Shown here in pieces: positions 1,375 to 5,157 of a stretch of 33,492 nucleotides of DNA (positions within the stretch are counted from its first letter, which is position 1; each line of letters opens with the position of its first letter). The DNA lies in assembly GCA_025056115.1 (NCBI GenBank), contig JANWVM010000025.1, positions 1-33,492 on the forward strand. Direction: 5' to 3'. The DNA is from Gloeomargarita sp. SKYG116 (GTDB lineage: Bacteria > Cyanobacteriota > Cyanobacteriia > Gloeomargaritales > Gloeomargaritaceae). The position numbers and the translations under genes were made by a program. Under the pieces are notes generated by a model. That model worked only from the letters and a program-made list of their open reading frames with translations. It was not told the DNA's origin and made no database searches.

Positions 1375-2502
1375 ATGACTCAGGTGCATGATGTCTTACC
1401 GACCCTTGCTGACCCGTCCCTCGATGAATTAGACGACGAAACCGCGGGGGATGACCTGAGTACTTTGGAGCTGGATGACCTTGACGATGACATAGACGCG
1501 GAAGAGGTCGATACCCCCCGGTCGGGACGTAAACGGTCAGCGAGCAAGAAAAATCCCTACACCGAAGACTCGATCCGGCTCTATCTCCAGGAAATTGGCC
1601 GGATTCGTCTGTTGCGGGCTGATGAAGAGATAGAACTGGCGCGGCAAATTTCAGTGTTGTTGGAGTTTGAGCGCAAGCGAGATGAGTGGACACGTCAGCA
1701 CGGGCAACCACCGACCGAGGAACAGTGGGCCGAACTGGTGGGCCTGCCCGTGGATGAGTTCCGGCGGCAACTGCGCCAGGGGTATCGCGCCAAGGAAAAA
1801 ATGGTGCAGTCTAACTTGCGATTGGTGGTCTCCATTGCCAAGAAATATATGAACCGGGGCCTATCGTTCCAGGATTTGATCCAAGAAGGGAGCCTGGGAT
1901 TGATCCGCGCCGCCGAAAAATTTGACCACGAGAAGGGCTATAAATTTTCGACCTACGCCACCTGGTGGATTCGCCAGGCGATTACGCGCGCCATTGCCGA
2001 CCAATCCCGCACGATTCGGCTGCCGGTACACCTGTACGAGACGATTTCTCGCATCAAGAAAACAACTAAAATCCTGTCCCAGGAGATGGGCCGCAAACCC
2101 ACAGAAGAAGAGATTGCCACGCGCATGGAAATTACTATTGAAAAACTGCGCTTTATCGCCAAATCTGCCCAACTGCCCATTTCCCTGGAAACTCCGATTG
2201 GTAAGGAAGAGGACTCCCGTTTGGGAGATTTCATTGAAGCCGATGGGGAAACGCCCGAAGACCAAGTGGCTAAGCATTTGCTGCGGGAAGATTTGGAGAC
2301 GGTGTTGAATACCCTGAGTCCCCGAGAACGAGATGTATTGCGCCTGCGCTACGGCCTGGACGACGGGCGGATGAAGACCCTGGAAGAAATCGGCCAGACC
2401 TTTAATGTCACCCGAGAGCGCATCCGGCAAATCGAAGCCAAGGCGCTGCGTAAGCTCCGTCACCCCAACCGCAATAGCATCCTCAAGGAATATATCCGTT
2501 AG
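1375..2502 (+). CDS. rpoD: RNA polymerase principal sigma factor SigA/RpoD (group 1 sigma-70)
   Basis: This 375-residue protein directs RNA polymerase to housekeeping promoters. A very acidic N-terminal segment (about residues 15-48) is followed by [18 protein letters not shown] (region 1.2). Region 2 carries [27 protein letters not shown] and the -10 recognition helix [19 protein letters not shown]. Region 3 follows, then region 4.2 with [20 protein letters not shown] for -35 binding. It is close to cyanobacterial SigA throughout, with the typical length. The ATG follows an AAGGAG site. The gene is monocistronic, and the isiX operon converges on it with its terminator in the gap. Substrate promoters with TTGACA/TATAAT-like boxes are visible elsewhere in the window, for example before thrC. 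Confidence 0.96.
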
Positions 2503-2619: not shown

Positions 2620-4023
2620 CTAGGCGGTTGGCGCTTCTGTCTCAGTCTCTACCACTGGTGTGGGTGGGGCGATGGCAGGGGGTTGAGTCTCCGTCACCTT
2701 TGTTTCTTTGGCCGGGGTTGTCGTTTTCATAATGGGTTTACGGATGGGTGCGTAGAGCGGGCCGCTAGGTCGGGGGTGGGTGACCACAGCTGCTGCCGGT
2801 TCGTAAAAAACCCAGGTCTGGAGCTGGTACATGGCCTGGTAGAGGGTGCCAGCGACGCCGTTAATGTCGGTGAGAGAGCCTGGGATTGCTCCTTGCACCG
2901 GTTCATAGAGGGCGTCTCCTGCTGAAGGCCTCAAAGCCGACATGGGCGTTAAACGCGGTTCATAGACCACCTCCGGTAAGGGAGAAGCACTGCACGTGAA
3001 ACGAGGTTGATATACAGCCTGCTGCTCCTGGCGCCACGCCCGGAACATCTGTGTTACGTCAAGGCCCATGGCTCGCTGGAAGTGCCACAATCCCCCTTGC
3101 AGGAAGAAAAAGGCCAGGTAGAAATGGGCATTGGCCAACCACACCCGCGTCGAGTACAGCGTTGCGCCGGTTGGGTCGTAGTAGGCAGGGGTAAACGCCG
3201 ACCGGAGTTTCAGGGCGGGGCCGTAGAATACCTCTGGATAGGCCAGGGTATTGAACCCGCAGTAGTAGGACGCCGCAAACCCCGCCAGGGCAATGCCAAA
3301 CAGGGAGTAGCTTAAAATGCCATCCGCAGAGAACAAGAAACGACGTTTGACCCAACCAAACGGCGGCACCAAAATATGCCAGGTTCCCCCTAGCAACAAC
3401 AACACCGCCACATAGACGTGTCCCCCTACCAGATCCTCAAGGTTATTCACATCAAACAAGTGGGTGCGGTAGTCCCAAATGGTCGCCCAGTCCAACGTCG
3501 GCTGCACCGTCCGTACCTGTCCGAGCGTGGCATCGTACAACCCACCCCCCACCGTGGCTTTGAGAACCAGAAGTAAGGCTCCGAGTCCCAAAACCAGCAG
3601 GTGATGGCCCAGGATTAACCCCAACTGCCGCTCGTCATCCCAGCGGAAATGGAATTTCCCAGCCGGTGGGGGTACCATCTCCAGGCTCGGCGGTAGTTTG
3701 GTGAAATGGAACCAAGCCCCCCAGGCTAACACGCCAGCGCTGACTAGATGAAACGCAGCAACGGCCACATAGGGAAAGGTATTGACAACCTGTCCCCCGA
3801 CGCCCACACCCCATCCCAATGTCGCCAGGTGAGGCATTAGAATCAGGCCCTGTTCATACATAGGCCGGGTGGGGTTATAGCGGGCCAATTCAAACAGCGT
3901 CATCGCCCCTGCCCAGAACATGATGATTGCTGCCTGGGCGACATGGGCCACAATGAATGTGTTAGAAAGGTCGGTCAAGCGTGCATTCCCCGCCCACCAC
4001 GGATAGCGTTGCGTTTTGTTCAT
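2620..4023 (-). CDS. isiX: IsiX-type CP43-like chlorophyll a-binding antenna protein with a repeated C-terminal tail
   Basis: This is a thylakoid membrane antenna protein of the IsiA/Pcb/CP43 family, expected to bind chlorophyll a and feed a photosystem. The six-helix core (about residues 20-320) has the family signatures [45 protein letters not shown] and [19 protein letters not shown], with conserved His residues in each helix pair. It lacks the large lumenal loop of CP43. Unlike IsiA (about 340-350 residues) it has a 137-residue tail after the last helix. The tail contains six hydrophobic-Y-x-P-like motifs with Tyr at 338, 354, 373, 395, 407 and 424, then a Lys/Thr/Pro/Glu-rich end. There is no PsaL domain, unlike some CP43-PsaL fusions. 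The AGGTG site before ATG 4023 supports the start. Its place behind apcD4 and apcB3 identifies it as IsiX of the low-light cluster. The identification is firm at family level and good at subfamily level. Confidence 0.85.
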
Positions 4024-4045: not shown

Positions 4046-4080
4046 AAAAAACCACCCCCTAGCTCCCGTTGGCCAGGGGG
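4046..4080 (-). terminator. Terminator-like hairpin between apcB3 and isiX (possible attenuator)
   Basis: On the minus strand, 19 bases after the apcB3 stop, CCCCCT pairs with AGGGGG. The stem can extend by two more pairs past a mismatch. TGG and six T residues follow. It sits 22 bases before the isiX start. Such a weak intrinsic terminator inside an operon commonly lowers expression of the distal gene. That role here is inference. Confidence 0.5.
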
Positions 4081-4099: not shown

Positions 4100-4585
4100 T
4101 CAGGACAGACCAGCGATGATGTGGTCGAGATACCCCGCTAGTTCTTGTCCCGCTTCGGAGCCGACTGTTTCGTTCAGCACCTCCTTCATCGCATTCAGCG
4201 CCTGCACCACCCGGTCAATGGGCACCCCCAGCGTCTGGTACGTTTCCTTGAGACCGTTTAATACCCGTTCATCCAGAATCGAAGGGTCAGCCGCCAGCAT
4301 GGCGTAGGTGGCATAGCGCAAAAAGTAGTTCAAGTCCCGTAGGCAGGCCGCATAGCGACGCGTGGGGTACATGTTGCCCCCCGGCAAAGTGATGTCGCCA
4401 TAGAGCAAACTTTTGGCAACTGTCCGGCTGATAATTTGGCTCGCGGTCGCGCTAATCGTTGCCGCCGCCTTGACCCGCATCATACCCCGCTCGAAGTACT
4501 GCCGGAGTTGATTGAGGGCCGCATCACTGAGGTATTGCCCCTGCGCATCCGCCGGATTAATTAAAGCTGTAATCGTATCTTGCAT
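4100..4585 (-). CDS. apcB3: Allophycocyanin beta subunit, ApcB3-type (low-light cluster)
   Basis: This phycobiliprotein beta chain of 161 residues has the exact length of ApcB. It has the globin-like phycobilisome fold, the chromophore Cys81 in RRYAACLRD, Asn71 in GGNMY (the residue methylated in AP beta chains), and [12 protein letters not shown] before the final helices. It departs from housekeeping ApcB in several places, such as [22 protein letters not shown] and [11 protein letters not shown], as expected for a paralogue. With ApcD4 it should form the far-red-absorbing allophycocyanin described from low-light thermophilic Synechococcus. An upstream in-frame ATG exists at 4636. The ATG at 4585 has a GAGGAG site at the right distance and gives the canonical MQD N-terminus. 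There are 98 bases between it and apcD4. Confidence 0.85.
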
Positions 4586-4683: not shown

Positions 4684-5157
4684 TCAGAACGCACGGATTA
4701 AACGATCAAAGTAGGGAGCAGCTAAGGCCATTTCTTCGGCAGAAAGCAAGCCCGCTGTCACTTCTTTGAGGCTGGTCATGGCGATGCGCAGATTATTTAA
4801 TGGCACCCCCAACGAAACATACATTTCCCGCATCCCGTTGAGGCCAATATCCTCAAGCGGTTTGTCGTTGCCAGCGAGAACACAATAGCTAATCAGCCGG
4901 ATGTACCACGCCTGGTCTCGTTGACATAGCGCGGTCTTTTGGGCATCGCCGCGATTGCTCGGCGTGTTGGGGCACTTGGCCCAAAATCGCTTGCTGCCCT
5001 CTTCCACAATCTTGCGTTCGTTGGCTGCCAATTTCTGCGCCACCTGAATCCGCAACGCTCCCTTGCTAAAAAACTCCTCTAACTTGTTCAATTCGGCGCT
5101 ACTGAGGAAACGGTCAGCAGCATCCGATTGAGCAATCACTTGCGCAACCAGACTCAT
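4684..5157 (-). CDS. apcD4: Allophycocyanin alpha-like subunit, ApcD4-type (far-red allophycocyanin)
   Basis: This phycobiliprotein alpha-type chain of 157 residues, slightly shorter than ApcA/ApcD, begins MSLVAQVIAQSD like ApcD. It carries a bilin-attachment Cys78 in the motif CQRD, where most paralogues have CLRD, then QAWYIRLISYCVLAGND and LNGMREMYVSLGVP. The loop before the chromophore (residues 58-77, FWAKCPNTPSNRGDAQ) differs strongly from the usual PGGNAYG-QR sequence and is about three residues short. Changes in this loop would alter the chromophore pocket. Published work links ApcD4 with ApcB3 to far-red absorption and helical nanotube assembly during low-light growth. Subfamily assignment rests on sequence character and operon context. 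It starts the operon. No strong ribosome site is visible. Confidence 0.8.
   Translation of the reverse strand: MSLVAQVIAQSDAADRFLSSAELNKLEEFFSKGALRIQVAQKLAANERKIVEEGSKRFWAKCPNTPSNRGDAQKTALCQRDQAWYIRLISYCVLAGNDKPLEDIGLNGMREMYVSLGVPLNNLRIAMTSLKEVTAGLLSAEEMALAAPYFDRLIRAF

Follow-up and report, generated by a model that had tools for sequence, protein, structure and literature searches.

What does the long C-terminal tail of the IsiX protein at this locus bind, and in what manner? The window, by which we mean the whole stretch of 33,492 nucleotides that was analysed (contig JANWVM010000025.1 of Gloeomargarita sp. SKYG116), carries on its minus strand apcD4 (4684..5157) and apcB3 (4100..4573), both matched by PF00502, and downstream of them isiX (2620..4023), an open reading frame of 467 residues. 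By alignment ApcD4 has Ser11 and by sequence comparison ApcB3 has Thr4 and Pro11, residues typical of the nanotube-forming proteins and linked to helix formation by Gisriel 2023 (PMC10038336). IsiX belongs to the PsbC/IsiA chlorophyll-binding superfamily, with 205.8 bits for PF00421 (cut-off 25) and 398.5 bits for TIGR03041 (cut-off 335). Residues 1-330 (3034..4023, minus strand) form a CP43/IsiA-type chlorophyll-binding membrane domain with six membrane helices of 24-29 residues each in the AlphaFold2 model; at its end begins a short stromal helix (residues 323-333) that bears the invariant W330. The tail comprises residues 331-467 (2623..3033, minus strand). Ordinary IsiA is indeed tail-less, as the preliminary description of this DNA had held: IsiA proteins from ten loci, spread over this genome and eight more, stop ~20 residues beyond the last helix. 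IsiA proper ends shortly after helix 6, which IsiX with its 137-residue tail does not. Nor is it a PsaL fusion, a point on which we also agree, as the matches are of the CP43/IsiA type only and a PsaL match is absent. With adjoining apcD4 and apcB3 of the nanotube type and a tail homologous to other IsiX tails, the protein falls among the IsiX of LoLiP clusters. An LcyA-type photoreceptor gene does not lie beside the cluster, whose neighbours encode a sigma-70 factor (1375-2502, plus strand, oriented towards isiX), a TldD/PmbA protein and a VanY protein; this does not disqualify the assignment, because related operons with a dissimilar or absent photoreceptor are on record (PMC12214013).

The tail itself and a proposed nanotube role are already known. 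Olsen 2015 (PMC4477158) reported a C-terminal extension of IsiX, Chen 2019 (PMC6416890) described one of ~150 residues, rich in Gln and Pro, in related proteins and called its function unknown, and Gisriel 2023 (PMC10038336) put forward a model in which the C-terminus of IsiX runs through the ApcD4-ApcB3 nanotube and serves as its ruler, or alternatively is wound around it. The preliminary description, which knew of no described function, overlooked this ruler model. IsiX co-purifies with FRL-AP in the LoLiP strain studied by Gisriel 2023 and also in work cited there. The passages available from these three papers mention neither Tyr, nor Tyr spacing, nor an IsiX without its membrane domain. 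Added here are the register of the Tyr residues, the finding that the tail and LoLiP ApcD4 occur in exactly the same genomes, and an IsiX that has lost the membrane domain (TM-less IsiX). At stake are the membrane attachment of helical far-red allophycocyanin and its length limit; we found no residue-level prediction in the published ruler model, and the Tyr register names five residues, plus spacings.

The closest described proteins are the LoLiP IsiX of Thermostichus/Synechococcus (PMC4477158, PMC10038336), which share with the window the cluster apcD4-apcB3-isiX, the CP43/IsiA-type domain and an extension of ~100-130 residues. They differ in that the window cluster has no adjoining photoreceptor gene, and their extension is, in the text available, described without motifs. 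IsiA2 of Halomicronema hongdechloris (PMC6416890) is likewise an IsiA-like protein with a Gln/Pro-rich C-terminal extension of ~150 aa in a LoLiP-like cluster, and Tyr is absent from its main-text description. IsiA2 was reported to lack the conserved His in helix 6, and IsiX in the window resembles it at one position (residue 311, within 3034-4023), reading QGGLWH where IsiA has QGHLWH; the missing His is likely a chlorophyll ligand.

The tail had been described as 137 residues after the last membrane helix with six Y-x-P motifs, and both the segment and the six motifs exist where they were placed, within residues 336-427 (2743-3018). Their tyrosines, all encoded on the minus strand, are Tyr338 (AVYQP, 3010..3012), Tyr354 (VVYEP, 2962..2964), Tyr373 (ALYEP, 2905..2907), Tyr395 (TLYQA, 2839..2841, directly after the invariant Leu394), Tyr407 (VFYEP, 2803..2805) and Tyr424 (PLYAP, 2752..2754), at intervals of 16, 19, 22, 12 and 17 residues. 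A seventh conserved tyrosine, Tyr399 (AMYQL, 2827..2829, in TLYQAMYQ), had been overlooked, and Y-x-P describes most of the listed motifs but not TLYQA. The charged, Pro-rich end was correctly recognized; it covers the last ~40 residues (427-467; 2623..2745, minus strand), though it is not conserved.

How far does this pattern extend beyond the window? All seven same-genus genomes have the tail, with 41-60% identity to that of the window (71-83% over the whole protein). Other lineages were reached with ApcD4 as bait in whole genomes and in the named genome collection (30 loci), and the adjoining gene was read. Across 33 tails, which share 15-59% identity with the window tail, only W330, L394 and Tyr 338, 354, 373, 395 and 407 are invariant. 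Position 399 holds Tyr in 27 of the 32 representatives and Phe in the other 5. Beyond the first six anchors, two Tyr near the tail end are frequent and shift in position; Tyr424 is found in 28/32 at a variable position. Pro at +2 ranges from 0/32 representatives at Tyr395 to 28/32 at Tyr373, and literal Y-x-P is restricted to some sites and to the taxonomic order of the window. In these alignments the conserved unit is therefore Tyr and its spacing rather than the Y-x-P that had been proposed, and the motif is better written as a hydrophobic residue, Tyr and then usually Glu or Gln, with Pro frequent at +2 or +3. Conservation in other IsiX proteins, on which the preliminary description had staked its motifs, holds for the Tyr and fails for the Pro. 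The spacing, previously called regular, is constant but uneven: intervals among the first six anchors are 16, 19-23, 22, 4 and 8-9 in 37/37 tails. Of 74,000 shuffled tails, 2 fit this pattern; as it was drawn up once the alignment had been seen, and from homologous sequences, the contrast serves for description only. Within six Gloeomargaritales tails, 7/7 tail Tyr are invariant, compared with 36 of 115 ungapped columns (hypergeometric p = 1.9e-4). A match of seven Tyr to the seven protomers of one helical repeat was considered and dropped, as tails of other lineages have 10-13 Tyr.

The tail is of low complexity (11% P, 10% Q, 7.3% Y) and has no match in Pfam families or in solved structures in the PDB; the phycobilisome linker domain has no Pfam match in any of the 33 tails or in IsiX of the window. 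AlphaFold2 with 31 IsiX sequences gave a fair membrane domain, with blocks mostly at 70-96, while the pLDDT of the tail was ~30-50, and the tail is accordingly predicted to be intrinsically disordered. Repeated docking by a flexible segment, as first suggested, is thus supported by predicted disorder, invariant anchors and nearly fixed spacing.

On the strength of these sequence patterns we consider it probable that the tail acts as an intrinsically disordered linker and attaches to the ApcD4-ApcB3 helical nanotube by Tyr anchors at nearly fixed spacing. This is the best reading because the tail follows FRL-AP, not photosystem I (PSI) or chlorophyll binding. The analysis establishes that the Tyr and their spacing are conserved, that the tail is predicted to be disordered, that it occurs strictly together with LoLiP ApcD4 and that in one lineage it outlasts the membrane domain; contacts of the Tyr with ApcD4/ApcB3, how many protomers one tail spans and any influence on tube length are inferred. 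From CP43/IsiA topology the tail lies on the cytoplasmic side. In ordinary IsiX the membrane domain would place the first part of the strap at the cytoplasmic thylakoid face, next to the chlorophylls of IsiX and perhaps near PSI as well. Tyr395, Tyr399 and Tyr407 may be close enough for one compound site, with Tyr338, Tyr354 and Tyr373 on further sites, so that one tail could run across several protomers. The published helix has 7 protomers in 720 degrees and 72.6 Å (PMC10038336), from which we computed a rise of 10.4 Å and a turn of 102.9 degrees per protomer. Tyr395 and Tyr399, four residues and thus at most ~14 Å apart, cannot reach two protomers and would have to share a site, and by linker-reach arithmetic the 16- and 22-residue intervals are long enough to link several pairs of protomers, whether along the inner or the outer wall. 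Linker reach fits the inner and outer tube paths alike and does not choose between them. Because nanotubes assemble in vitro without IsiX (PMC10038336), the tail must be dispensable for assembly.

Could the tail be the strict axial ruler of nanotube length that Gisriel 2023 envisaged? The span from Tyr338 to Tyr407, 69-73 residues in 37/37 tails, is what a ruler would call for, and 86 residues laid on an inner ramp (radius 15-17.5 Å) would cover ~10-11 protomers, close to the 10-13 seen in vitro; this radius is assumed, not measured, and the ramp figure is arithmetic only. A fully extended axial path, however, would span ~27 protomers, and the distance from Tyr407 to the last anchor varies from 21 to 51 residues, so the constant length applies to part of the tail only. 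We therefore regard a strict ruler as fairly unlikely.

The Tyr-anchored linker can be viewed against an IsiX that has lost its entire chlorophyll-binding domain and kept the tail. Such TM-less genes were found in one Pleurocapsales lineage, in three assemblies of which two are not MAGs: Pleurocapsa sp. CCALA 161 (L098:7179-7697), Pleurocapsales cyanobacterium LEGE 10410 (L099:7407-7937) and a Myxosarcina MAG (G102; L101:7179-7697). The gene comes after apcB3, encodes 173-177 residues and lies beside an intact apcD4-apcB3 pair; an IsiX N-terminus of ~28 residues is fused in frame to the pre-tail segment (KMFKNWQRN) and the tail. In a tree of ApcD4 and ApcB3 the three loci form one clade inside a larger group (support 95/89) whose other members have full-length IsiX, the nearest of them from Hyella and Pleurocapsa, and the deletion is therefore derived, most simply by one event. 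A second tail was looked for in the three genomes and none was found, and CCALA 161 retains tail-less IsiA-type genes. An IsiA fragment in the Myxosarcina MAG (L076) was rejected as the missing IsiX membrane domain, being IsiA-like in sequence and in a separate place. The model of the TM-less protein has a helix at residues 13-44 and a tail without a confident fold. This helix of the fused N-terminus has some amphipathic character (shuffle p 0.007-0.03) and might hold the protein to the membrane surface, which we note as a lead only.

If the TM-less gene were a decaying pseudogene, its retained tail would be uninformative on function. Its dN/dS is ~0.45, and that of the tail is ~0.44, whereas the full-length relatives L091 and L107 give 0.24 with each other, a sign of relaxed constraint; moreover, in LEGE 10410 the N-terminal part has lost two Tyr and some of its conservation. 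The frame, however, is intact in all three assemblies, although between L101 and L099 a stop would be expected in 89% of random-mutation simulations; the three indels between them are all in frame, the amino acid changes number 20 where random mutation predicts 24.5 (p = 0.053), and no tail Tyr has been lost. Each of these tests is weak alone, but jointly they tilt away from a dead gene and towards a constraint that is relaxed yet seemingly present, and we consider decay unlikely. The strap of this lineage thus appears able to function in the absence of a chlorophyll domain. More tentatively, and with somewhat less than even confidence, we suggest that the Tyr-registered strap is specific to helical allophycocyanin and that Pleurocapsales TM-less IsiX became a stand-alone linker by deletion of the chlorophyll domain. 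If so, such a far-red nanotube antenna would need no chlorophyll protein of its own to function or to be coupled to a photosystem. Natural TM-less IsiX is a small protein (173 aa) whose binding can be studied without membrane biochemistry, and if it binds it would represent a kind of phycobiliprotein linker without a known linker domain. As observations in their own right, the cluster of this lineage lies a few kb from the phycocyanin operon (cpcBA and linkers; L101:1127-2202, L098:1759-2834), and in the Myxosarcina MAG it precedes a PAS/GAF-type histidine kinase.

The partner had been left as either the ApcD4-ApcB3 assembly or PSI, and the distribution of the tail favours the former. Among 386 cyanobacterial genomes the tail profile matches five, exactly those with LoLiP ApcD4 at E < 1e-70, and it is absent from the three of the 386 that have only FaRLiP-type ApcD (~1e-54 to 1e-57); the threshold parting the two types was picked from the scores, in a wide gap (1e-75 to 1e-57). 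Two weak tail-profile matches (L039 and L040, E ~0.003-0.009) were discarded as frames inside other genes. In the named genome collection the tail is present at 28/28 ApcD4 loci that have the isiX position on the contig. The loci adjoining a tail have ApcD4 Ser11 (29/29), ApcB3 Thr4 (27/28) and Pro11 (28/28), residues that the FaRLiP controls do not have. Three loci with FaRLiP-type ApcD (L072-L074) were rejected as LoLiP clusters, being tail-less clusters of the apcA2/B2/D2/E2 type, and kept as negative controls. Docking of IsiX to PSI or another membrane complex, with a merely genetic link to ApcD4-ApcB3, could draw on the IsiA rings that bind PSI and on the IsiX-PSI supercomplex proposed by Gisriel 2023 (PMC10038336). 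IsiA, however, needs no tail to bind PSI, and the tail is missing from every genome without LoLiP ApcD4 although all have PSI. Because it also persists beside intact apcD4-apcB3 where the chlorophyll-binding membrane domain has been lost, the pattern points to the nanotube rather than PSI as the partner, and we judge PSI docking to be quite improbable. About as improbable is a generic region of stickers and spacers, gathering antenna proteins into condensates by aromatic contacts in no defined register, which the low-complexity Pro/Gln/Tyr composition and predicted disorder would suit, since stickers tolerate movement and constant spacings of 16, 22 and 4 would be unexpected at identities down to 15%.

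CsoS2 and EPYC1 are disordered multivalent scaffolds in which short repeated motifs bind an oligomeric partner. Compared with them, from general knowledge, the motifs of IsiX are fewer, joined to a membrane protein and paired with a helical antenna. A Tyr-anchored nanotube linker would also resemble the phycobilisome linkers (ApcC, ApcE, CpcG, CpcL) in holding phycobiliprotein stacks together or to the membrane, but unlike these the IsiX tail lacks a linker domain, and neither Pfam nor the PDB relates its sequence to theirs.

Several minor observations concern the gene itself. In Synechococcus sp. SynAce01, a complete genome, a deletion of 1 base within the membrane domain splits isiX (L103:7182-8698), and the tail frame is still open with all anchors; isiX in a low-coverage MAG (L090) is also broken in the membrane domain with the tail frame open. 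Both breaks may be errors. Between apcB3 and isiX of the window lies a terminator-like hairpin with a T-run (4055-4080, minus strand). As a device making IsiX scarcer than ApcD4/ApcB3 it was rejected, being unsupported in the window (z = -0.4 against shuffles); the same gap in several relatives holds strong hairpins (z -4 to -7). Finally, in Gloeocapsopsis, Chlorogloeopsis and relatives (L067, L069-L071, L105, L106) isiX is convergent to apcD4-apcB3 and therefore needs its own promoter, and the tail anchors are kept.
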